Below, piece by piece: positions 1,489 to 12,863 of a DNA stretch of 51,035 nt (the first letter of the stretch is position 1; the number at the start of each line of letters is the position of its first letter). A program made the position numbers and the translations under genes. The stretch is from Acidobacteriota bacterium. Lineage in GTDB: Bacteria > Acidobacteriota > Thermoanaerobaculia > Multivoradales > JAGPDF01. The stretch is taken from contig JAAYLR010000103.1 of NCBI GenBank assembly GCA_012521815.1, forward strand, positions 1-51,035, read 5' to 3'. The notes beneath the pieces were generated by a model. It was not told where the DNA came from. It saw only the letters and a list, made by a program, of their open reading frames with translations, and did no database searches.

Positions 1489-3750
1489 ATGACGCGAGCT
1501 TTCCGGTGGGCAGCGGGACTGCTCCTGATCTGCGGGCTGAACGGTCCGGCTCTGGCGGAGGTGGCGGTGCGGCTGCCGGCCGCAGTAGCGGCGACGGCCG
1601 ACCTCGCCGGGATGCGGGTGATCGACTACGGCTCGTACGTCTGGGTGACCGGTCCGGAGGCGGACCGCCTCCCCGGCGCCGAGCCGTTCGCCGGGGCGGG
1701 CGAGGTGCGGCTGCCCGGCGTCCGGTTCGATCCGCTCCGCGACGGCGAACCGCCCCTCCCGGCCGGGGTGCTGCCCGATTCGGGCGAGCGCGGGTTGCGG
1801 CTCGTGCAGCTCGTGGGGCCGCCGAAGAGCGCGTGGGTGGATGGCTGGGCGGAGCGAGGGCTCGAGATCGTCGCCTACTTCCCGCACTTCACCTACCTCG
1901 TCCGGGCCGAGCGGGCGGCGGTCGAGGCGGTGGCCGGCGAGGGGTACGTACGCTGGCACGGCCGCTTCGAGCCGCCGTATGCGGTCGATGGCCTGTTCCG
2001 CGCTCGCGGTGCCGCCGGCGACCGGATCGCGCTGCTCCTCGACACGGGCGGTGAGCCCGAAGGGCTCGCGGCGGCGAGCGCCCGGCTCGCCGCCCTCGGG
2101 GCCGGGGTGGAGCGGGTCGCCCGGGCCGCCGCCGACGGCCGCCAGTGGCTCCTCCAGCTCGTGGCGCCCGTGACGCGCGCGGACGCGATCGCGGCCGTGC
2201 CGGGAGCGATCTGGGTCGGCGAGGGGAGCGCCGGCATCCGGCTCGAGGACGAGATGTCGGATCAGATCGTGGCCGGCAACCATCCCGGCGGGACTCCGGT
2301 GCTCGGCTACCGGCCGCACCTCGCCGCCCTCGGCTTCGACGGCACCGGGGTGATCTGGACGATCGCCGACACCGGTGTCGACTGGGATCATCCCGATCTC
2401 GCCAGCCGTCTGGTGGGCGGGCTGACGCCGCCCGGCGCTGCCTGCGACATCCCGGGACAGCCGGGGAGCGACTGCGCCGGGGGCGGGCACGGCACCCACG
2501 TCGCCGGGATCGTCGGCGGCGACGCCACCGCGGGCTTCACCGACGCCGCCGGCTTCCTCTACGGCCTCGGGGTCGCGCCGGCGGTGAGCCTCTTTGCGAT
2601 CAACGTCTTCTCCGACATCGAATTCGAGGAGATCACGGAGGCGGCGCTCGCCGCCGGTTCGATCGGCGCGAACAACTCCTGGGCGAGCGGTGGCGCGGGG
2701 GTCGGCTACACCGCGGCGGCGCGGATCCAGGATCTGCTGGTGCGCGACGGCGACCTCGGCACGACGACGGTGGCCGAGCCGTTCATCCAGGTCTTCTCGG
2801 CCGGCAACTCCGGTCCCGGAGCCTCGACGATCACCGAGCCGAAAGAGGCGAAGAACGTCATCTCGGTGGCCAACAGCCTCAACAAACGGGCGGGCAGCAT
2901 CGACGCGATCGCGACCGGGAGCAGCCGCGGTCCGGCGCGCGACGGGCGGATCCTGCCCACGGTGGCCGCCCCGGGCTCGACGATCGCCTCGACCCGCAAC
3001 GATCTCGGCGGCAACTGCGCCGTGCCGATCGGCGGCACGAACGGCCACTACGCCTTCTGCTCGGGCACGAGCATGGCGGCGCCGCACGTCTCCGGCCTGC
3101 TCGCGGTCGCGAGCGAGTGGTGGCGCGCGCGCACCGGCGGCGATGACTTCAGCCCGGCGATGGCCAAGGCGCTGCTCGTGGCGAGCGCGGTGGACATGGG
3201 GGTGGCGGACGTGCCGAACAACCAGGAGGGGTGGGGCCGGGTGCAGCTCACCCGCCTGATGGCGCCCGGGGTGAGCGCCGCCTATCTCGACCAGACGCAC
3301 CGCTTCGGGGAGAGCGGCGAGGCGTGGAACTGGTACTGCGATGTCGACGTCCCCGGCGAACCGCTGCGGGTCGTCCTCGCCTGGAGCGACGCGGCAGGAG
3401 CGGCGGGCGCGAACCCCGCGCTCGTCAACGACCTCGATCTCACGGTCTCCCACGGCCCCACGAGCTGGCTGGGGAACGTGCTGAGCGGCGGCTGGTCGGT
3501 GAGCGGCGGAAGCGCCGACCGGCTCGCCAACCTCGAGAGCGTCTTCGTCCAGAGCCCCACGGCCGGGCCGGTCGCGATCACGGTCGCGGCGCCGGTGATC
3601 GCCGGCGACGGCGTTCCGTACAACGGCGATCCGACCGATCAGGACTTCGCGCTCGTCTGTATCAACTGCCGGCAGTGCGACTCCGGCGGCTTCTTCTCTG
3701 ACGGCTTCGAGAGCGGGAGCACCAGCGCCTGGGCGGCGGTATTTCCGTAG
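1489..3750 (+). CDS. Secreted subtilisin-like serine protease (S8) with C-terminal beta domain
   Basis: 753 aa. A signal peptide (cleavage near ALA-EV, residue 24) sends it across the inner membrane. A propeptide-like region of about 270 residues follows. The catalytic triad is visible: Asp294 in IADTGVDWDHPDL, His334 in GGGHGTHVAGI and Ser528 in GTSMAAPHVSG; the oxyanion Asn is in FSAGNSGPG. Residues about 600-720 (LVVNDLDL-like LVNDLDLTV) resemble the jelly-roll domain of KP-43-type subtilases. The protein ends with FFSDGFESGSTSAWAAVFP, a tail of a type I associate with secreted proteins of this kind of bacterium. The start ATG follows GGGGGAAGCG. It is probably monocistronic with its own promoter. 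The natural substrate is unknown. Confidence 0.93.
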   Translation: MTRAFRWAAGLLLICGLNGPALAEVAVRLPAAVAATADLAGMRVIDYGSYVWVTGPEADRLPGAEPFAGAGEVRLPGVRFDPLRDGEPPLPAGVLPDSGERGLRLVQLVGPPKSAWVDGWAERGLEIVAYFPHFTYLVRAERAAVEAVAGEGYVRWHGRFEPPYAVDGLFRARGAAGDRIALLLDTGGEPEGLAAASARLAALGAGVERVARAAADGRQWLLQLVAPVTRADAIAAVPGAIWVGEGSAGIRLEDEMSDQIVAGNHPGGTPVLGYRPHLAALGFDGTGVIWTIADTGVDWDHPDLASRLVGGLTPPGAACDIPGQPGSDCAGGGHGTHVAGIVGGDATAGFTDAAGFLYGLGVAPAVSLFAINVFSDIEFEEITEAALAAGSIGANNSWASGGAGVGYTAAARIQDLLVRDGDLGTTTVAEPFIQVFSAGNSGPGASTITEPKEAKNVISVANSLNKRAGSIDAIATGSSRGPARDGRILPTVAAPGSTIASTRNDLGGNCAVPIGGTNGHYAFCSGTSMAAPHVSGLLAVASEWWRARTGGDDFSPAMAKALLVASAVDMGVADVPNNQEGWGRVQLTRLMAPGVSAAYLDQTHRFGESGEAWNWYCDVDVPGEPLRVVLAWSDAAGAAGANPALVNDLDLTVSHGPTSWLGNVLSGGWSVSGGSADRLANLESVFVQSPTAGPVAITVAAPVIAGDGVPYNGDPTDQDFALVCINCRQCDSGGFFSDGFESGSTSAWAAVFP

Positions 3751-3790: not shown

Positions 3791-3834
3791 TAGACTCTCG
3801 CTCTCGGTAGCACCGGCACGACTCGTGCCGGTGC
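3791..3834 (+). promoter_or_regulatory. -10 hexamer and 5'-UTR hairpin before the GGDEF-TonB gene
   Basis: TAGACT (3791-3796) is a -10-like hexamer. It is followed by a perfect 10-bp stem, GCACCGGCAC / GTGCCGGTGC (3810-3819 with 3825-3834), with loop GACTC. The stem ends 7 nt before the ATG and no Shine-Dalgarno sequence is visible. There is no T-tract, so a terminator is unlikely; a translation-control hairpin is the better guess. Confidence 0.45.
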
Positions 3835-3841
3835 GCACCTC

Positions 3842-5140
3842 ATGGATCCGGAGACCCCCACCGACCGTCGTGCCGGGGCACGCCCCGCGAGCGATCCGCT
3901 CGCCGGGTTCCCCCATGCGGAGCCGGGCGGCGAGCTCGCCTTCCGGGATCCGCTCACCGGTCTCCTCAACCGCCGCGCCCTGAACCTCCTCTTCGCGGAG
4001 CGGTGGCGGCCGCTGCTCGCCGCCCACGGCGAGATCACCCTCCTGCTCTTCGATCTCGATCTGTTCAAGCAGATCAACGACGCCTACGGCCACCTCGCCG
4101 GCGATCAGGTCCTGCGGCGGGTGGCGGAGCTGATGCGGGAGACCTTCCGCGCGGAGGATCTCCTCGTCCGCTTCGGCGGTGACGAGTTCGTGGCGGTGCT
4201 GCCCGGAGCCGGCGCCGAGGCGGCGCCGCCGCTGGTGACGCGGCTGCGGGAGGCGCTGGCGGCCGAGAGCCTCCCCGAACCCCTGCGGGCGCGTGCCCGG
4301 CAGCTCCCGCTCGGCTCGAGCGTCGGGATCGCCTCGGCGCCGGCCGATGGGCTCGGCGGCGAGGAGGTGCTGGCGATCGCCGATCGCCGCCTCTACGCCG
4401 AGAAGCGGCAGCGGCGCCGGCCGCGCCGCCGGCGGGCCTGGCTCCTCGCGGCGCTGCTCGCGACGGTGGGCGCGGCCGCCTGGGTGACGGCGCAACGCGA
4501 GGTGCGGCCGCTCGCGATTCCGGTCGCCCCGGCCCCGGTGGCCACCCTCGAGCCGGCGCGGGCGGCCGAGATCGCCGCCCTGCAGGCCCAGGTCGCGCGG
4601 CTGACCGAGGAGCTCGCCGCGGCGCGCCTGGCGCACCCCGCGAATCAGGAGCCGAGCGCCCGGGAGGGGGAGCTCGAGCGGACGATCGCCGCGCTCCAGG
4701 AGGAGCTCGAGCGCCTCTCCGAGCCGCCCGCGCCGGCGCCGGTGCCGCCCCCGTCGCCTCCGGTCCGGGCAACGCCCGCGGCGGCTCCCCCGCCCGCGCC
4801 GGCTCCCGTGCCGGTGGTACGTCCCGCCCCCGCGCCCCGCGCGGAGGCGCCCCGGGTGACGGCGCCCGTGCTCCTTTCGGTCCCCCGGCCGGAGTACCCG
4901 CCGCTCGCCCGGCGCCTGCGCCGGAGCGCGAACGTGGAGCTGCTCGTCGAGATCGACGCGGACGGCCGGGTCACCGCCGTCCGGCAGGAGGGCCCGCCGG
5001 TGGGGCTCGGTTTCGACGAGCGGGCCCGGCAGGCGGCGCTGCGCGCCCGCTACCAGCCCGCCACCCGGGACGGCGAGCCGGTCCCGGGCATGGCGCGCCT
5101 CACCGTGAGCTTCCATCTCGGCGAGGGGGAGGGGCCATGA
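3842..5140 (+). CDS. GGDEF diguanylate cyclase domain fused to a TonB C-terminal domain
   Basis: 432 aa. Residues about 35-195 form a GGDEF domain: DPLTGLLNRRALN, the metal-binding FDLDLFKQINDAYGH, an intact GGDEF at 112-116 and an RxxD inhibitory site (RAED, 103-106) with canonical 5-residue spacing. It should therefore make cyclic di-GMP in the cytoplasm and respond to product. A basic stretch precedes one membrane span (about 199-218). Beyond it lie a coiled coil (about 235-305), a Pro/Ala-rich linker and a TonB_C-like domain (about 345-430: SVPRPEYPPLARRLR...GRVTAVRQEG...) in the periplasm. TonB domains normally contact outer-membrane receptors. The two parts are each well known; I do not know this combination from described proteins. 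The ATG lies directly after a hairpin and the stop overlaps the next gene (ATGA). Confidence 0.85.
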   Translation: MDPETPTDRRAGARPASDPLAGFPHAEPGGELAFRDPLTGLLNRRALNLLFAERWRPLLAAHGEITLLLFDLDLFKQINDAYGHLAGDQVLRRVAELMRETFRAEDLLVRFGGDEFVAVLPGAGAEAAPPLVTRLREALAAESLPEPLRARARQLPLGSSVGIASAPADGLGGEEVLAIADRRLYAEKRQRRRPRRRRAWLLAALLATVGAAAWVTAQREVRPLAIPVAPAPVATLEPARAAEIAALQAQVARLTEELAAARLAHPANQEPSAREGELERTIAALQEELERLSEPPAPAPVPPPSPPVRATPAAAPPPAPAPVPVVRPAPAPRAEAPRVTAPVLLSVPRPEYPPLARRLRRSANVELLVEIDADGRVTAVRQEGPPVGLGFDERARQAALRARYQPATRDGEPVPGMARLTVSFHLGEGEGP

Positions 5141-5625
5141 ACCCCGGGCCGTGGCGGTGGGAGGCGCTCCATCCGCTGGTGGTCCACTTCCCCGTGGCGC
5201 TCCTGCTCGTCGCGCCCTGGCTGACGCTGCCAGCGTTCTGCCTCCGCCCCCGCCGCGCCCGGCCGTACCTGCTCGCGGCCCTCGCGCTCCTCGCCGTGGC
5301 CACGCTCGCCGCCGGGCTCGCGGCGGCGACGGGCGCCGCGGCGGCGGCGACCGTCCTCCTGCCGGCGGGGGGCGAGGAGCTCCTCGCCCGCCACACGGCG
5401 CTCGGAAGGCTCGTTCCCGCGGGCGCCGGAGTGCTCACCGTGGGGCTGATCGCCCTCCTCGTCCGGTTCGGACGGCGCCCGGTACCACGGCCGGCATGGC
5501 GGCGCACCGCGCTCGCCGCCTGGCTCGTGCTGGCGCTCGCCGTGGCGATCCTGGTGGCGGCCACCGGCGGTGCGGGCGGCCGGCTCGTCCACGAGCTCGG
5601 GGTGCGGGCGGCGGCCGGCGGCTGA
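5137..5625 (+). CDS. DUF2231-like four-span membrane protein
   Basis: 162 aa. It begins with MNPGPWRWEALHPLVVHFPVALLLV, matching the HPLVVHFP signature of DUF2231-type membrane proteins, and ends with GGAGGRLVHELGV, also typical of that group. Four hydrophobic spans are visible (about residues 20-40, 47-70, 90-112 and 126-146). Function is not established for the family; some members sit near haem or redox proteins. Its ATG overlaps the TGA of the GGDEF-TonB gene by 4 nt, so the two are probably translated together. It converges with prfC, with only 19 bp between stops. Confidence 0.75.
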   Translation: MNPGPWRWEALHPLVVHFPVALLLVAPWLTLPAFCLRPRRARPYLLAALALLAVATLAAGLAAATGAAAAATVLLPAGGEELLARHTALGRLVPAGAGVLTVGLIALLVRFGRRPVPRPAWRRTALAAWLVLALAVAILVAATGGAGGRLVHELGVRAAAGG

Positions 5626-5644: not shown

Positions 5645-7246
5645 CTACTGCAGGAACTCTTTCGTGGTCCGGAAGCGGATCCGCGGCCAGTCTTCCATGG
5701 CCGCCTGGAGCCGCCAGGCGGAGGGGGCGAGGTAGACCGGATCGCCGTGGACGTCGTCGGCGAGATGGGGGGAGAAAGCGGTGAGGAACCGCTTCAGCTC
5801 CCCCTCGTCGTCGGCCTCGAGCCAGCGGGCGGTGTGGAGGCTGGTCGTCTCGAAGCGGGCCTCGAGCTCGTACTCGGTGCGGATCCGGTCGGCGAGGACG
5901 TCGAACTGGAGCGGTCCGGCCACCCCCACGATCCACTCGTTGCCGACGCGGGGGCGGAAGACCTGCGCCGCCCCCTCTTCGGCGAGCTGCTGGAGCGCGC
6001 GGCCGAGGTGCTTGGCGCGCAGCGGATCGACCGGACGCACCCGCTGCAGCAGCTCCGGCGCGAAGGAGGGGATGCCGGTGAAGCGGAGCGACTCTCCTTC
6101 GGTGAGGGTGTCGCCGATCCGCAGCAGGCCGTGGTTCGGGATCCCGAGGATGTCGCCCGCGTACGCCTCCTCGGCGAGCTCCCGCTCGCGGGCGAGGAAG
6201 AGGACCGGCGTGTGCACCGCGAACTGCCGGCCGGCGCGCACGTGCCAGAGCCGCATGCCGCGGGTGAACCGCCCGGAGCAGAGGCGCACGAAGGCGATCC
6301 GGTCGCGGTGCTTCGGGTCCATGTTCGCCTGGATCTTGAAGACGAAGCCGGAGACCGCCGCCTCGCCGGGCTCGACGGTCCGTTCCCGCGCCGGCGCGGG
6401 GCGCGGCGGCGGGGCGAGCTCGACGAGCGCGTCGAGCAGCTCGCGCACCCCGAAGCTGTGGAGGGCGGAGCCGAAGAAGACCGGCGTCATCTGCCCGGCG
6501 CGGTACGCCGCCGGGTCGAAGGCGGGGTAGCCGCCGGCGGCGAGCGCCACCTCCTCGCGGAGCTGTTCGAGGGCATGGCGCGGCAGCAGCGTGGCGAGCG
6601 CGGGGTCGTCGAGGCCGCTCACCCGCGCCCGCTCCACCGGCCGCTGCCCGCCGCCGCGGTCGAGCAGCACGAGGCCGTCGTCGAGCAGGTCGTAGCAGCC
6701 GAGGAACTGCCGCCCGGCGCCGACCGGCCAGGTCGCCGGGGTGACGTCGAGCTGCAGGTCGCGCTCGACCTCGTCGAGGAGCGAGAACGGATCCCGCCCT
6801 TCGCGGTCGAGCTTGTTGACGAAGGTGACGATCGGCACGTCGCGCAGCCGGCAGACCTCGAAGAGCTTGCGCGTCTGCGCCTCGATCCCCTTGGCGGCGT
6901 CGAGCACCATCACCGCCGAGTCGACCGCGGTCAGGGTGCGGTAGGTGTCCTCGGAGAAGTCCTGGTGCCCGGGGGTGTCGAGGAGGTTGAAGGTGCAGCC
7001 CCGGTAGTCGAAGGTCATCACCGAGGCGGAGACCGAGATGCCGCGCTCCTGCTCGACCCGCATCCAGTCGGAGTGCGCCCGGCGCCGCTCGCCGCGCGCC
7101 CTGACCTCGCCGGCGAGCTGGATCGCGCCGCCGAGCAGGAGGAGCTTCTCGGTGAGCGTCGTCTTCCCCGCATCGGGGTGGCTGATGATCGCAAAGGTGC
7201 GCCGGCGGGCGACTTCGGCGGCGAGGCGGGTCATGGCGGAGGTCAT
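5645..7246 (-). CDS. prfC: Peptide chain release factor 3
   Basis: 533 aa from the chosen start, close to the usual 525-535. RF3 is the GTPase that ejects RF1/RF2 from the ribosome after peptide release. G motifs are intact: SHPDAGKT (22-29), DTPGHQDF and NKLDREGRDP; the body reads as RF3 (GISVSASVMTFDY, LDVTPATWPVG) and ends with KEFLQ. The ORF-track start at 7366 adds 40 low-complexity residues. I prefer ATG 7246 because a GGGGAG Shine-Dalgarno lies 3 nt upstream and the length fits the family. The upstream 470 bp hold a small ORF and a terminator (listed separately) that could form a leader for this gene. Confidence 0.95.
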   Translation of the reverse strand: MTSAMTRLAAEVARRRTFAIISHPDAGKTTLTEKLLLLGGAIQLAGEVRARGERRRAHSDWMRVEQERGISVSASVMTFDYRGCTFNLLDTPGHQDFSEDTYRTLTAVDSAVMVLDAAKGIEAQTRKLFEVCRLRDVPIVTFVNKLDREGRDPFSLLDEVERDLQLDVTPATWPVGAGRQFLGCYDLLDDGLVLLDRGGGQRPVERARVSGLDDPALATLLPRHALEQLREEVALAAGGYPAFDPAAYRAGQMTPVFFGSALHSFGVRELLDALVELAPPPRPAPARERTVEPGEAAVSGFVFKIQANMDPKHRDRIAFVRLCSGRFTRGMRLWHVRAGRQFAVHTPVLFLARERELAEEAYAGDILGIPNHGLLRIGDTLTEGESLRFTGIPSFAPELLQRVRPVDPLRAKHLGRALQQLAEEGAAQVFRPRVGNEWIVGVAGPLQFDVLADRIRTEYELEARFETTSLHTARWLEADDEGELKRFLTAFSPHLADDVHGDPVYLAPSAWRLQAAMEDWPRIRFRTTKEFLQ

Positions 7247-7400
7247 CGCTCCCCGGCGCGGGCTGCCGCGGGCGGGCGGAGGTGGGGTTGCCGGCGAAGG
7301 TGGCGCATCGGATCGTCTCCCGCGGCGGTCGCCTCCGGCGGCCGCGAGGGGGGAGGATGGTATCAACCCCGGGCGCCCGCCGGCAGCATCGCCTCCGGAC

Positions 7401-7439
7401 GAACAAAGGCCCCGGCCCGCACGCGGCGGGACCGGGGCC
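7401..7439 (-). terminator. Intrinsic terminator or attenuator upstream of prfC
   Basis: On the minus strand GGCCCCGG-T-CCCGC / GCGGG-CCGGGGCC forms a 13-bp stem with one bulge (7408-7420 with 7426-7439), followed by TTTGTTC. It lies between the 15-codon ORF and prfC. A second small hairpin (GCCCTC...GAGGGC, about 7465-7485) precedes it. Confidence 0.6.
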
Positions 7440-7521
7440 TCGGGTTCGTATCGGCGGCGCTGGGTTGCCCTCTGTCGTCGAGGGCCCCCCCGCGGCGCGA
7501 CGTCCGCCCCAGGAGGTACCT

Positions 7522-7569
7522 CTAGGAGGACGCCACCTCCACGAAACCAGGTTGACGACTACTGTCCAC
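7522..7569 (-). CDS. 15-codon ORF with a near-perfect Shine-Dalgarno sequence
   Basis: The reading is GTG...TAG, MDSSRQPGFVEVASS. Six nt upstream of the GTG is AAGGAGGT (7583-7576), and the longer AAGGAGGTGGTCC matches the complement of the usual 16S 3' tail at 12 of 13 positions; no other gene here has such a strong site. Five nt after the TAG is ACCTCCTGGGG (7517-7507), which can pair with CCCAGG..GGAGGT around the Shine-Dalgarno, and further on comes a terminator. This layout fits a leader peptide or a small regulatory RNA gene ahead of prfC. That it is translated is inference, and no homologue is recognised. Confidence 0.45.
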   Translation of the reverse strand: MDSSRQPGFVEVASS

Positions 7570-7694
7570 TGGACCACCTCCTTCCTGGGCGTGTCCGTCG
7601 GCGGCGGGCCCCACCCCGCCCGGTCCCTTGGGCCGCCCGAGCCTCTTCGGGACCGCCGCGTCGTCCCTCCCGGACGCGCGGATGGATCCCGTGC

Positions 7695-7723
7695 ATCCTC
7701 GGCCCCGCCGGGCGTTCTGTCAA
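7695..7723 (-). promoter_or_regulatory. Tentative promoter for the small-ORF transcript
   Basis: TTGACA (7723-7718) overlaps the stop codon of the epimerase gene. GAGGAT (7700-7695) follows after 17 bp. The -35 is perfect and the -10 poor. The predicted transcript would run from about 7688 to the terminator near 7401, roughly 290 nt and rich in inverted repeats. Confidence 0.35.
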
Positions 7724-8676
7724 GCCGGGGCGGGGAGCTCCTGCTCCCGGTACCAGGCGACGGTTGCGGCGAGGCCGGTGGCGAGGGGGGTGGGGGGGGT
7801 GCCGAAGCGGGCGGTGAAGCGGGAGTGGTCGACGAGGTAGGGGCGGTCCCACTGGAACTTCAGCTCGGCGAGCTCGCGCAGGAGCGGGACGAAGAGGCCG
7901 AGGAGGCGGAGCAGCGGCCAGGGGAGGACACGCAGGCGGGGCCTGGTGCCGGCGAGCGCGGCGATCCGGGTCACCACCTGACGGAGGGTGACGGGCGGGG
8001 CGTTCGGTACGTGCCAGATCTCGCCGAGAGCCGCGGGCGCATCGGCGACCGCGAGCATGGCGGCGGCGAAGTCGGGCAGGTAGGTGAAGGTGTGCGGCTG
8101 GTCGGCCTCGCCGAGGAGGCTCGCCGGCCGGCCGGCGAGGAGGGGCGCGAAGACCCGCTCGCCCAGCCAGGAGAGGCGCACCCGGGGGCCGTAGAAGTCG
8201 CTCGCCCGCACCAGCGCCACCCGCGCCTCGCCGCGCTCGTGGGCGGCGAGGAAGCGCGCCGCCATCCGGGCGCGGAGCGCCGGCTTGCTCCCGAAGGTGG
8301 TGCCGGGGAGATCCTCCCGGAGCGGCTGCTCCTGCGGGCCGCAGGCGTAGAGGTTGTCGGCGAAGAGGAGCGGCGCCCCGCTCGCCGCGGCGCCCGCCAG
8401 CAGCCCCTCGACGATCGGCGGCCAGAGCTCCCGCCAGCGGGTGAAGTCGACGCCGACGCAGCCGTGGATGACGTCCGCCCCGGTGGCGGCGCGGACCATC
8501 GTCTCCCGGTCGGCGGCGTCGCCGGCCAGGATCTCGACGCCGGGCGGCGCCGCGGCCCGGCCGCTGCGGCAGAGGCCGCGCACCCGCTCTCCGCGGGCCA
8601 CGAGCTGTGCCGTCAGCTCGAGCCCGAGGGGCCCGTTGCAGCCGACCACCAGGTGCAGTCTCGATCCGTCGCTCAT
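7720..8676 (-). CDS. NAD-dependent epimerase/dehydratase-like (extended SDR)
   Basis: 318 aa. The N-terminal Rossmann motif is LHLVVGCNGPLGLELTAQL, a variant of GxxGxxG. The acidic/neutral turn, the LAGDAADRE segment and the VIHGCVGVDF strand follow the extended short-chain dehydrogenase plan. The usual catalytic YxxxK is not clear: LYACGPQ occupies the Tyr position and the Lys lies in FGSKPALRAR. The substrate is unknown; nucleotide sugars or isoprenoid-like ketones are common in the superfamily. ATG 8676 is chosen over the overlapping GTG 8679 because GGAGGG lies 7 nt upstream. It is divergent from the tRNA cluster. Confidence 0.8.
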   Translation of the reverse strand: MSDGSRLHLVVGCNGPLGLELTAQLVARGERVRGLCRSGRAAAPPGVEILAGDAADRETMVRAATGADVIHGCVGVDFTRWRELWPPIVEGLLAGAAASGAPLLFADNLYACGPQEQPLREDLPGTTFGSKPALRARMAARFLAAHERGEARVALVRASDFYGPRVRLSWLGERVFAPLLAGRPASLLGEADQPHTFTYLPDFAAAMLAVADAPAALGEIWHVPNAPPVTLRQVVTRIAALAGTRPRLRVLPWPLLRLLGLFVPLLRELAELKFQWDRPYLVDHSRFTARFGTPPTPLATGLAATVAWYREQELPAPA

Positions 8677-8716
8677 CACGATTCCCTCCGGAGGGCGATG
8701 GTAGCCGCGTTCGTGA

Positions 8717-8745
8717 TTGACAGTCTCCCGGCCGCTGCCTAGACT
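8717..8745 (+). promoter_or_regulatory. Promoter of the tRNA cluster
   Basis: TTGACA-N17-TAGACT is nearly consensus and ends 12 bp before the first tRNA. It is the best sigma-70-type promoter in the window and serves as a reference for reading the other TAnnnT hexamers. Confidence 0.75.
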
Positions 8746-8757
8746 TCCAGACTCGGT

Positions 8758-8831
8758 CGGGGCGTAGCGCAGCCAGGTAGCGCACCTGCCTTGGGCGCAG
8801 GGGGTCCCCAGTTCAAATCTGGGCGCCCCGA
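8758..8831 (+). tRNA. tRNA-Pro (anticodon TGG)
   Basis: The 7-bp acceptor stem CGGGGCG/CGCCCCG, the anticodon stem CCTGC/GCAGG with loop CTTGGGC, and the T loop TTCAAAT are all present. The 3' CCA is not encoded. Confidence 0.95.
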
Positions 8832-8905
8832 GATTCGAAAGCCCGCGCCGCCCGCGGCCGAGCGGTCGGCTGGCCGGACGTCGCTGGAGAGACCGAAACC
8901 AGGGG

Positions 8906-8982
8906 CTGCCTGTAGCTCAGCTGGATAGAGCGGCGGCCTTCTAAGCCGCGGGTCGGGGGTTCGAGTCCCTCCAGGCAGGCCA
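8906..8982 (+). tRNA. tRNA-Arg (anticodon TCT)
   Basis: Acceptor stem CTGCCTG/CAGGCAG, anticodon stem GCGGC/GCCGC with loop CTTCTAA, and T loop TTCGAGT. CCA is encoded at the end. Confidence 0.95.
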
Positions 8983-8999
8983 ACTTTGAGCAGTCGAGC

Positions 9000-9075
9000 G
9001 GTGAGTGTAGCTCAATGGTAGAGCACCGGACTGTGGCTCCGGACGTTGTGGGTTCGAGTCCCATCACTCACCCCA
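9000..9075 (+). tRNA. tRNA-His (anticodon GTG)
   Basis: Acceptor stem GTGAGTG/CACTCAC with the His-specific extra G(-1) at 9000 opposite C73. Anticodon stem CCGGA/TCCGG with loop CTGTGGC. CCA is encoded. Confidence 0.96.
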
Positions 9076-9084
9076 ATCTTCTTC

Positions 9085-9161
9085 GCGCCCGTAGCTCAGC
9101 TGGATAGAGCGACGGCCTCCGGAGCCGTAGGTCAGAGGTTCGAATCCTCTCGGGCGCACCA
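9085..9161 (+). tRNA. tRNA-Arg (anticodon CCG)
   Basis: Acceptor stem GCGCCCG/CGGGCGC, anticodon stem ACGGC/GCCGT with loop CTCCGGA, and T loop TTCGAAT. CCA is encoded. No clear terminator follows. Confidence 0.96.
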
Positions 9162-9215
9162 CCTCCCCCCTTTCCCGCCGCACACCGTTTCCCGCCGGGC
9201 TGTGGAGCCGCTCAC

Positions 9216-9244
9216 TTGAGTCGAGAGGCGGTTCCGGGTAGACT
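9216..9244 (+). promoter_or_regulatory. Promoter of the small secreted protein gene
   Basis: TTGAGT-N17-TAGACT, 33 bp before the ATG at 9278. The -10 is identical to that of the tRNA cluster. Confidence 0.65.
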
Positions 9245-9277
9245 CCACCCCCAAACCCGGGGAGAGGAGTCGTCGCC

Positions 9278-9790
9278 ATGCGCGCAGCCATCGCCCTCGC
9301 AATCGCCGCCCTGCTCTTCGCCGCGCCGGTCGCGGCCGAGATCTTCGTGGTCAAGCTCACCAACGGCAACGAGTTCGAGACCCGCTATCGCCCCCGCGAG
9401 GCGGGCTGGGATTCGAGCAAGGTGGTCTTCGTCACCGACGTCGGCAACCCGATCGCGCTCCCCAAGGCCGCGATCGTCTCGGTCATCGGCCGGAGCGAGG
9501 ATCGCGGCTTCGGACGGGTGATCGACAACACGACGTTCGAGCTCGGGCTGGCGCCGAACGACGCGCCCGATGCCGAGGAAGGCGCCCCGGCCGATCAGGT
9601 GCAGGCGTTCGTCGACGCCCTCCAGCAGTCGCAGGGGCAGCCGGTGAACTACAACGTGCAGCAGTTCGCCGAGCCGTCGGCCACCGGTGGCCTGCCGGTC
9701 AACTGGGTGGCGCCGCCGCCCACGCCGCCGACCGGCACCGTGGTCTTCCAGGGTACCCAGAGCCCGCCGCCCCCGCCGCCGGAGCAGTAG
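9278..9790 (+). CDS. Small secreted protein of unknown function
   Basis: 170 aa. A signal peptide ([21 protein letters not shown], cleavage near residue 20) is followed by a beta-rich segment, [49 protein letters not shown] (about 22-70). This looks like a small SH3-like barrel of the kind that describes 'NG.E....' strands. The rest is acidic and then Pro-rich, ending PPPPPPEQ, so it may be a flexible linker or surface-exposed tail. The gene has its own promoter and terminator and is monocistronic. I do not recognise a named family; export is the only firm statement. Confidence 0.75.
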
Positions 9791-9821: not shown

Positions 9822-9854
9822 GCCCGCCCCGCCATGCCGGCCGGGCGGGCTTTT
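9822..9854 (+). terminator. Intrinsic terminator
   Basis: GCCCGCC (9822-9828) pairs with GGCGGGC (9844-9850), followed by TTTT. It separates the secreted protein gene from the riboswitch. Confidence 0.7.
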
Positions 9855-9867
9855 GACAACCAGCGCC

Positions 9868-10030
9868 GCGGTGACCCGGCTCTCAGGCCGGGTCGATGAG
9901 GGAAGCCGGTGCGAGACCGGCGCGGCCCCCGCCACTGTTACCGGGGACGAAACCGGGGATGCCACTGTGCCCGCGAGGGCATGGGAAGGCCCGGGAGTAG
10001 GGAGATCCGGAAGCCAGGAGACCTGCCGCG
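9868..10030 (+). promoter_or_regulatory. Cobalamin riboswitch
   Basis: The conserved elements of the cobalamin (B12) aptamer are readable. They are GAAGCCGGTGCGAGACCGGCGCGGCCCCCGCCACTGT split over 9902-9938, and GGAAGCCAGGAGACCTGCC near 10009-10027, with a paired P1-like GACCCGG...CCGGGTC hairpin at the 5' side. The ends are approximate. It lies 126 bp before btuB and should lower expression of the B12 uptake operon when adenosylcobalamin or a related form is abundant. Confidence 0.92.
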
Positions 10031-10155
10031 TGCGCCCGATGCCACGATCCCCCGGGGTGCGGGGAGACGGGCGTGGGGCGTCCGCCGGACGCCCGGCCCC
10101 CCTCCCGCCAACCCGTTCCGATCGCGGCCTCGGTTTCCGAGGTCAGGAGCACGCG

Positions 10156-11949
10156 ATGCGGATTCGCGCCCTCGTCCTGGCCGGGTTGCTCGGTGGGAGC
10201 TTCCCGGTCGTCGCCCAACCCACCGCACCCGAGTACGCCGAGACGATCCAGGTCACGGCGTCCCTGCGCGAAGAGGAGGCCGACACGGTCGCCGCCTCCG
10301 TCTCCGTGCTCACCGCCGCCGAGGCCGAGGCCCGGCAGGCGGTTTCGGTCCACGAGCTGCTCGCCGCGCTCCCCGGGCTCACGCTCGTCCAGAGCGGCTC
10401 GCCGGGCAAGGCGGTCTCGCTCTTCGCCCGCGGCACGAACTCCAACCAGACGCTCGTCCTCGTCGACGGCGTGCGCCTCAACGAGCCGCTGCTCGGCGGC
10501 TTCGACTGGGCGTTCGCGATGCCCGAGGAGATCGCGCGCGTCGAGAGCGTGCGGGGGCCGTTCAGCGTTCTCTACGGCTCGGCGGCGATCGGCGGGGTCG
10601 TGCAGCTCCTCACCCGGCACGAGCCGGGCGCGACGCTCCGGCTCGAAGGGGGAGAGCGCTCCTACCGGCGGGCCGGGCTCGCCACCGGCTTCGTCCGGGG
10701 GGCGCTCTCCGGCGCGCTCTCCGGCGCCTGGCGCGAGGGGGAGGGGGAGCTGCCGAACGACGGCTTCGACGGCGGCGCGGGGCGGCTGCGCCTCGACTGG
10801 CAGGCGCGGCCGGGGCTCACCGCCGGGCTCGCCGGGCGGTGGCAGGAGGCGGAGATCGGCCTGCCGTACGACTTCTTCGGCGCCCCCGCCACCGAGCGGC
10901 GGCAGGAGAGCGAGCTGCGCCACCTCGCGCTGCCGGTCAGCTGGCAGACGCGCACCCTCACGGTGAGCGGGAGCGCGGCCCGGGTCGAGCAGGAGGTGAT
11001 CCTCGCCGATCCTCACGATCCGTTCGCGGCGAGCCGGAGCGAGGCGTGGGGGACGCAGCTGCGGGCGACCGCGCAGCGCCACCTGGGCGAGCAGTGGGAG
11101 CTTGCCGCGGGGGCGGAGTGGGAGCGGCAGCGGGCGAGCTCGGCCGACGCCTTCGGCGGCGGTCTCGACGGGGCCCGGGAGCGGCGGAGCGGCGGCTTCG
11201 TGCAGACCACCTGGCGCGGGGCGCGTGCCCGCGTCGAGGCGGGGGTACGGCGAGACGACCACGACAGCTTCGGCGGCGAGACGAGCTGGCGGGGCGGCGC
11301 GCTCGTGCGGGTGCACGACCACCTGCGGCTGCGGGCGAGCTACGGCGAGGCGTTCCGCGCGCCGTCGCTCGGCGACCTCTACTTCCCCGGCTTCGGCAAC
11401 CCGGAGCTGCGGCCGGAGCGGAGCCGCGGCGCCGAGCTCGGCGCGGAAGGGGAGGCCGGGCCGTGGCGGCTCGCCGCGACCCTCTTCGAGAACCGCCTCC
11501 GCGACCTCGTGCAGTTCGACTTCGTCTCCTTCCTGCCGTTCAACACCGGCCGCGCCCGCACCCGGGGGCTCGAGCTCGAGGCGCGCGCCACCTTCGCCGC
11601 CGGCTGGCTGCGCGCGAGCGCCACCCGGCTCGAAGCCGAGGACCGGGCGACCGGCGCCCCCCTCCTCCGCCGCCCGCGCACGGCGGCGGCGCTCGCCGGC
11701 GGCGTGGCCGCCGGCCAATGGGCGCTCCACGGCGGGGTGCGCTACGTCGGCGAGCGGACCGATGTCGGGAGCGTCGAGCTTGCGGCGTACACCGTCGCCG
11801 AGGCGGGGGTGAGCTGGCAGGCCACCGCCCGGATCCAGCCGTACGCCCGGGTGGAGAACCTCTTCGATCGCGCCTACGAGGAGGTCACCGGCTACCCGGC
11901 GCCGGGGCGGACCTGGATCGCCGGCGTGGCCTTCCGGGCCGGGCGCTGA
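10156..11949 (+). CDS. btuB: TonB-dependent outer-membrane cobalamin receptor (BtuB-like)
   Basis: 597 aa. It is an outer-membrane barrel that imports cobalamin using TonB energy. A signal peptide (MRIRALVLAGLLGGSFPVVAQ) is followed by a TonB box (ETIQVTAS, about 28-35). The plug domain (SVHELLAALPGLTLVQSG, VLVDGVRLNEPLLGG, VESVRGPFSVLYGSAAIGGVVQLLT) leads into a 22-strand-type barrel with the FRAPSLGDLYFPGFGNPELRPERS loop. It lacks the terminal Phe usual for barrel proteins and ends in FRAGR. The start was moved from the ORF-track 9853 to ATG 10156, which has AGGAGC upstream and begins the signal peptide; the longer ORF would run through the riboswitch. It is first in btuBFCD and its ligand is supported by the riboswitch. 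Confidence 0.93.
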   Translation: MRIRALVLAGLLGGSFPVVAQPTAPEYAETIQVTASLREEEADTVAASVSVLTAAEAEARQAVSVHELLAALPGLTLVQSGSPGKAVSLFARGTNSNQTLVLVDGVRLNEPLLGGFDWAFAMPEEIARVESVRGPFSVLYGSAAIGGVVQLLTRHEPGATLRLEGGERSYRRAGLATGFVRGALSGALSGAWREGEGELPNDGFDGGAGRLRLDWQARPGLTAGLAGRWQEAEIGLPYDFFGAPATERRQESELRHLALPVSWQTRTLTVSGSAARVEQEVILADPHDPFAASRSEAWGTQLRATAQRHLGEQWELAAGAEWERQRASSADAFGGGLDGARERRSGGFVQTTWRGARARVEAGVRRDDHDSFGGETSWRGGALVRVHDHLRLRASYGEAFRAPSLGDLYFPGFGNPELRPERSRGAELGAEGEAGPWRLAATLFENRLRDLVQFDFVSFLPFNTGRARTRGLELEARATFAAGWLRASATRLEAEDRATGAPLLRRPRTAAALAGGVAAGQWALHGGVRYVGERTDVGSVELAAYTVAEAGVSWQATARIQPYARVENLFDRAYEEVTGYPAPGRTWIAGVAFRAGR

Positions 11950-11951
11950 GG

Positions 11952-12863
11952 ATGCCGCACGGAGGCCGCCGCGCGCGGTCCGGGTTCGCGCTCGCCGGCG
12001 CCCTCCTGCTCGCCGCCTGCCGGGCGGCGCCGGCGCCGCCCGCCGCCCCGAGCCCGCGGGTGGTCGTCATGGCGCCGGCGGCGGCCGAGACGTTCGCGGC
12101 GCTCGGCCTCTCGGGGCTCGTGGTCGGCGTCGGCGACTTCGTCACCTACCCGCCCGAGCTCGCCGCCCGGCCCCGGGTCGGCGGCTACGACGCCCCGAAC
12201 CCCGAGCGCCTCCTCGCGCTCGGGGCGACCCACTTCGTCACCAGCGCGAGCGAGGCGGCAGCCGCCTCACGCGCCCGGCTCGCGGCGCTCGGCGTCGAGG
12301 TGATCGCGCTCGACGGCGCGAGCTGGGAGGGGGCGCTCGCCGGGATGGCGGCGCTCGGCGCCCGCTTCGGACGGGAGGAGGCGGCGGCCGCGCTGGTCGG
12401 CGGGATCGAGACCCGGATCGCCCGCCTCCGCGAGCGGACCGGAACGCTGCCCCGCCGCCGGGTGCTCTGCGCCGTCGGTCGCGACCCGCTCTACGCCGCC
12501 GGCCCCGGCTCCCATTTCGACGCGCTCCTCACCGCGGCCGGCGGCGAGAACCTCTTCGCCGACGGCCACGGCACCTATCTGCTCGCCTCGCTCGAAGCGG
12601 TGCTCGCGCGCGGCCCCGAGGTGATCGTCGACAGCGCCGACAACCGGCCGGGAGCCCCGTACGGGGCGCTCTCCGGGCTCTGGGGGCAGTGGCCCCTCCT
12701 GCCCGCGGTGGCGGCGGGGCGGGTCTGGCAGGTCTCGCCGGACCGGTACGCGGTGCCGGGGCCCCGGCTCGCCGAGATGGCCGAGGCGTTCGCCCGCTTC
12801 GTCCACCCGGAACGGTTCGGGCCGCCGACCGCGGCCGACTTCGGCCCGCCGGGAGGGGAGTAG
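11952..12863 (+). CDS. btuF: Periplasmic cobalamin-binding lipoprotein (BtuF-like)
   Basis: 303 aa. It is the substrate-binding component of the B12 ABC importer. A lipobox (LLLAACRAAP, Cys about 24) suggests membrane anchoring rather than a free periplasmic form. The helical-backbone binding-protein fold is recognised from VVVMAPAAAETFAALGLSGLVVGVGDFVTYPPELAARPRVGGYDAPNPERLLAL and AVGRDPLYAAGPGSHFDALLTAAGGENLFAD. The ATG follows the btuB stop after 2 nt, within TGAGGATG, so translation is coupled. The ORF-track frame begins far upstream inside btuB and was trimmed. Confidence 0.9.
   Translation: MPHGGRRARSGFALAGALLLAACRAAPAPPAAPSPRVVVMAPAAAETFAALGLSGLVVGVGDFVTYPPELAARPRVGGYDAPNPERLLALGATHFVTSASEAAAASRARLAALGVEVIALDGASWEGALAGMAALGARFGREEAAAALVGGIETRIARLRERTGTLPRRRVLCAVGRDPLYAAGPGSHFDALLTAAGGENLFADGHGTYLLASLEAVLARGPEVIVDSADNRPGAPYGALSGLWGQWPLLPAVAAGRVWQVSPDRYAVPGPRLAEMAEAFARFVHPERFGPPTAADFGPPGGE

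Follow-up and report, generated by a model that had tools for sequence, protein, structure and literature searches.

What would a diguanylate cyclase do with the C-terminal domain of TonB? In the window, which is the whole 51,035-nucleotide stretch of Acidobacteriota DNA analysed here, a single open reading frame encodes a 432-residue protein (DGC-TonB) that combines the two (Table 1). Both domains score above their Pfam cut-offs (PF00990 for GGDEF, PF03544 for TonB_C), and the NCBIfam models TIGR00254 (GGDEF) and TIGR01352 (tonB_Cterm) are concordant. About 30 residues, most of them modelled with low confidence, precede the GGDEF domain. The catalytic half carries an intact FKQINDAYGHLAGD along with the GGDEF motif and an RxxD I-site at the expected spacing; an I-site five residues before GGDEF is common among such enzymes, though not universal. 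A Hypr-type (cGAMP) GGDEF domain was considered and set aside, as nothing points to one and the N and D of NDxxGHxxGD, the residues that contact guanine, are kept.

Table 1. Features of the DGC-TonB locus, with window coordinates and the evidence for each.
Feature	Position	Strand	Basis
25-bp near-perfect palindrome GCACCGGCACGACTCGTGCCGGTGC	3810..3834	.	ends 7 bp before the start codon
DGC-TonB_C gene	3842..5140	+	whole ORF, 432 aa; whole or partial copies in 13 genomes
GGDEF domain, residues 33-192, cytoplasmic, catalytic (predicted)	3938..4417	+	Pfam 1.6e-38; fold Z 19.4
RxxD I-site RAED, residues 103-106, predicted product-inhibition site	4148..4159	+	same place in 12/12 covering homologues
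GGDEF active-site motif, residues 112-116	4175..4189	+	identical in 12/12 covering homologues
Basic stop-transfer KRQRRRPRRRR, residues 188-198	4403..4435	+	sequence
Sole transmembrane span, residues ~198-218, without His	4433..4495	+	hydropathy, class comparison; model helix 196-219
Periplasmic coiled-coil-like helices, residues 236-263 and 273-293	4547..4720	+	AlphaFold model; region in homologue alignment
Pro-rich linker, residues ~294-342	4721..4867	+	sequence; low pLDDT; homologue Pro content
TonB_C domain, residues 348-426, YP motif 352-353	4883..5119	+	Pfam 2.3e-12; PDB profile; fold match
DUF2231 membrane protein gene	5137..5625	+	Pfam 1.1e-9; ATGA overlap with the cyclase stop

An AlphaFold model of the full protein, built with 12 homologues, is confident over the GGDEF domain and over a TonB_C fold at residues 343-424 (pLDDT 92 when modelled alone). 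It places one helix at the span and two more behind it, and is of low confidence across the Pro-rich stretch. The GGDEF fold superposes on that of T. maritima with an rmsd of 2.2 Å over 149 residues. The TonB_C fold matches TonB of N. meningitidis (Z 11.6), Pseudomonas TonB and the E. coli domain in the BtuB:TonB complex (2gsk, Z 9.3); solved TonB domains score well above unrelated folds, and a profile of the domain finds TonB entries in the PDB at 6.5e-10. Sequence, Pfam and model together bear out the architecture that the preliminary description had proposed, with its basic stop-transfer, single span, coiled coil, Pro-rich linker and TonB_C end, and a topology with GGDEF inside and TonB_C in the periplasm fits everything found. 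The arm could be long enough to cross the periplasm: by arithmetic rather than measurement, about 58 helical residues would cover ~85 Å and about 49 Pro-rich residues ~150 Å if they adopt a polyproline-II form.

The same architecture occurs in 13 Acidobacteriota genomes, the window's included, from five families, one of them outside the class. A search of relatives gave four full-length homologues (G002, G003, G005 and G008) and three pieces cut by contig ends (G001, G006 and G007); profile searching across 148 genomes of the class then brought in G051, G113, G114 and G116, and a sample of 396 genomes of the phylum added G383, from a further family. In the class search, two-domain homologues score at least 372 bits and GGDEF-only matches at most 158, a clear gap; two cut copies do not follow this division (G007, with GGDEF and span only, at 346 bits; G001, with the TonB_C end only, at 141). 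Seven of the eight genomes in the window's own family have the gene, and beyond it the distribution is patchy. No homologue was found outside the phylum among 398 Pseudomonadota genomes at E 1e-60; since this set held no positive control, it is weak evidence of absence.

Conservation covers both ends of the protein. GGDEF and RxxD are kept in all 12 homologues that cover them and FKxxND in all 11, with the longer FKxxNDxxGHxxGD intact in every homologue covering it; 17 TonB_C columns, the YP pair among them, are invariant in 12 sequences. In the homologues, Pro makes up 11-20% of the stretch between the span and the YP motif, and the linker within it varies in length and sequence. The preliminary description had allowed that close homologues might have lost GGDEF or TonB_C residues, or that the frame might be a sequencing fusion of two genes. 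The motifs are kept, and the architecture continues in one frame at 40-50% identity in independently assembled genomes. The architecture is neither chance nor an assembly fusion, an explanation that the 13 genomes refute and whose probability is negligible.

The layout is the reverse of that in classical periplasmic-sensor cyclases, in which an N-terminal periplasmic sensor is followed by a span and then by the C-terminal GGDEF domain. DGC-TonB shares its fold, GGDEF motif, I-site and guanine- and metal-binding motifs with cyclases of the PleD, WspR, DosC and DgcR class. However, it lacks their N-terminal stalk or sensor domain, and its own sensor position comes after GGDEF, beyond the one span, at the periplasmic C-terminus. 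Among cyclic di-GMP enzymes of known input the sensor usually lies in front, GGDEF enzymes are active as dimers, and known cyclases are switched through an N-terminal helical stalk. Without such a stalk, entry of the signal from the C-terminal side would be an unusual route.

Whether the periplasmic end works as a TonB can be judged from its motor contacts. In E. coli, Ser16 and His20 of the TonB span contact ExbB, the His belonging to a conserved SHLS motif (PMC12215075). A D-box after the span binds ExbD (PMC10907165), and TonB_C binds the TonB boxes of receptors by strand addition (PMC11658791). Six genomes of the class supplied, among their TonB_C proteins, stand-alone TonBs and membrane kinases ending in TonB_C for comparison. 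All 13 stand-alone TonBs have the span His, against none of 12 DGC-TonB proteins and none of 10 kinase-TonB_C proteins; the sequences are related to one another, which makes a Fisher value descriptive only. A score for the D-box pattern did not cleanly separate these classes. In the TonB_C domain itself, the cyclase clade mostly has Ala or some other residue in place of the Trp in the motif W-K/R-F/Y-x-P of stand-alone TonBs, and the partner may therefore differ from a classic TonB box.

These data bear on the possibility that DGC-TonB works as an energy transducer and that cyclic di-GMP from its own N-terminus governs the coupling, in line with an earlier suggestion that cyclic di-GMP might control TonB activity or energisation. 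Like the TonB proteins of E. coli, Neisseria and Pseudomonas, it has TonB_C (similar in sequence and fold), a Pro-rich periplasmic linker and a single span, in the TonB order. Unlike them, it has lost the His that contacts ExbB, has gained a coiled coil and a cytoplasmic enzyme, and carries a TonB_C from another clade. ExbB and ExbD genes are present elsewhere in the genome, as the preliminary description had wished to know, but they stand beside the genome's own TonB: the ExbB-ExbD-ExbD-TonB genes are on contig C220, C212 carries a further set of Exb/Tol type, and neither set is near the DGC-TonB gene. A genomic link of TonB to exbB/exbD is usual, not universal. With the missing His, the TonB_C tree and the lack of an Exb neighbour against it, an energy-transducing role is very improbable. 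Because the motor contact of a true TonB is missing, DGC-TonB looks like an outer-envelope sensor and not a nutrient-uptake machine.

Membrane Ser/Thr kinases that end in TonB_C, fusions that Pfam confirms, provide a further comparison; two are encoded in the window's genome and others in its relatives. When 42 TonB_C domains from hand-chosen proteins are placed in a tree (~99 columns, root unknown), the signalling domains, from kinases and cyclases, split from the stand-alone ones at 100/99. The cyclase domains form one clade (100/98) that joins two kinase TonB_C domains at 98/88. DGC-TonB thus pairs a signalling-clade TonB_C with a span lacking His, as the kinase proteins do, and also resembles them in its Pro-rich linker and cytoplasmic signalling enzyme, although the output of a kinase is phosphorylation. 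Given the position of the cyclase clade beside kinase domains, the periplasmic arm of the cyclase, judged from sequence, probably came from such a kinase or is shared by both.

One of the two kinase genes of the window's genome (L114, G000:C220, 3360-6227, minus strand) is divergent to the ExbB-ExbD-ExbD-TonB operon at ~7040-9392 (plus strand), an arrangement that recurs in three genomes of two families (L114, L204 and L205). The operon-adjacent protein may be a receptor-like membrane kinase that monitors the TonB system. The other (L115, G000:C138, 7607-10633, minus strand) is a second kinase-like protein with span, coiled coil, Pro-rich stretch and TonB_C; its kinase domain gives a weak, partial Pfam match (5.6e-8), and its TonB_C is among those nearest to the cyclase's. 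Two M56 (BlaR1-type) peptidases with TonB_C (L165 and L174, in G008 and G113) are another signalling-type use of the domain on a membrane protein; they differ in having several spans and a peptidase, and L165, the one placed in the tree, belongs to another TonB_C lineage. A single-span protein in G051 (L173, C10, 670-1731) combines a bacterial SH3 domain with TonB_C, and its span is also without His.

The divergent kinase genes lend some weight to a reading in which the TonB_C of DGC-TonB competes or pairs with other TonB_C proteins, either TonB or the kinases, and so reports the state of the TonB system instead of reading receptors directly. TonB_C domains can dimerise, which would allow such pairing. 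However, it is one of the kinase genes that flanks the operon, and the cyclase gene lies away from it; we regard this reading as unlikely.

The surroundings of the cyclase gene vary. The overlapping DUF2231 gene keeps its place within the genus only (G001, L113) and is absent from this position in other genera, so DUF2231 is a possible partner but not a general one. Flanks in the same family hold other, partly shared genes (HAMP/phosphatase-like, kinase-like and peptidase, named by eye only), and those in other families differ again; no receptor or Exb gene recurs beside the DGC-TonB homologues examined. The window also encodes, some 5 kb from the cyclase gene, a vitamin B12 TonB-dependent receptor (btuB-like), which is followed by a frame resembling a substrate-binding protein (9853-12863). 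The btuB gene was not found on the contig of the genus neighbour and, its position not being conserved even there, was rejected as a dedicated partner. The palindrome upstream of the cyclase, GCACCGGCACGACTCGTGCCGGTGC, occurs nowhere else in the genome, even when up to 3 mismatches are allowed (RNA fold z -3.3), and is a possible operator, hairpin or terminator-like element. Further upstream, a subtilase (1489-3750) ends in FFSDGFESGSTSAWAAVFP and a protein of a relative (L108, 6423-7967) in LFADNFETGSTARWAATVS; the two ends look like a shared C-terminal sorting tag.

The absence of a conserved partner gene is one of three observations, with the conserved I-site and the changing length and sequence of the linker, that would suit a simpler alternative: a constitutive, feedback-limited cyclase that TonB_C and the Pro-rich arm merely tether at a site on the cell wall or outer membrane, giving local cyclic di-GMP without sensing. 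A coiled coil adjoins the span, however, which is a usual design for signal transmission, and the TonB_C domains nearest to its own belong to membrane kinases, a class of protein that usually serves as a receptor. Such tethering is a minority prospect, though the strongest of the alternatives considered.

The best explanation, to which we give about an even chance, is that DGC-TonB is a diguanylate cyclase that has in common with a family of receptor kinases a periplasmic TonB_C module without motor drive, and that it reads the state of the outer envelope to set cyclic di-GMP. The comparisons above establish the architecture, its motifs and their conservation, the loss of the motor contact and the kinship of the TonB_C domains; the enzyme activity, the dimer, the ligand and the direction of the signal we infer. 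The protein would be a membrane-bound cyclase turned around, with its N-terminal enzyme in the cytoplasm and its C-terminal sensor in the periplasm. The single span and periplasmic coiled coil would bring two copies together, and the stiff Pro-rich arm would project TonB_C outwards in the direction of the cell wall and the outer membrane. Its partner would most likely be a β strand, for example a TonB box that a receptor exposes, with TonB itself or peptidoglycan as the other candidates; contact with an outer-membrane receptor is possible. Occupancy or tension would alter the dimer, and thereby the pairing of the GGDEF domains and the output of cyclic di-GMP, which feedback at the I-site would limit. 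ExbB and ExbD would provide no drive, the TonB_C having been taken from, or being common to, membrane Ser/Thr kinases. The preliminary description had suggested that receptor contact or energisation is sensed and converted to cyclic di-GMP. An envelope sensor feeding cyclic di-GMP fits all the findings, whereas the energisation half is unsupported, with no His in the span and no conserved Exb neighbour.

A broader proposal, which we hold only tentatively and consider improbable on balance, is that Acidobacteriota reuse TonB_C as a periplasmic sensor module that tells the cytoplasm, by way of several outputs (Ser/Thr kinases and the cyclase), when a receptor or TonB is engaged. If true, the uptake of nutrients across the outer membrane would feed straight into phosphorylation and cyclic di-GMP signalling, by a route that reads TonB boxes independently of ECF sigma/anti-sigma systems.

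No report of a GGDEF-TonB_C or kinase-TonB_C protein was found in the openly licensed literature, where both terms co-occur in a paper on Marinobacter electrode biofilms. Each domain is known; what is new is that GGDEF and TonB_C are combined, that the contact with the motor has gone and that the domain is related to the TonB_C of kinases. In place of the usual sensor in front, this conserved family uses a TonB-type arm at the C-terminus, one without the motor contact. The comparison further brings to light a larger group of membrane kinases bearing TonB_C, apparently undescribed, of which one is encoded next to the TonB operon, and with this group the question of whether TonB_C is a sensor becomes testable with soluble domains. 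If TonB_C does read receptors, these bacteria would tie outer-membrane nutrient uptake or the state of the envelope directly to their lifestyle messenger.
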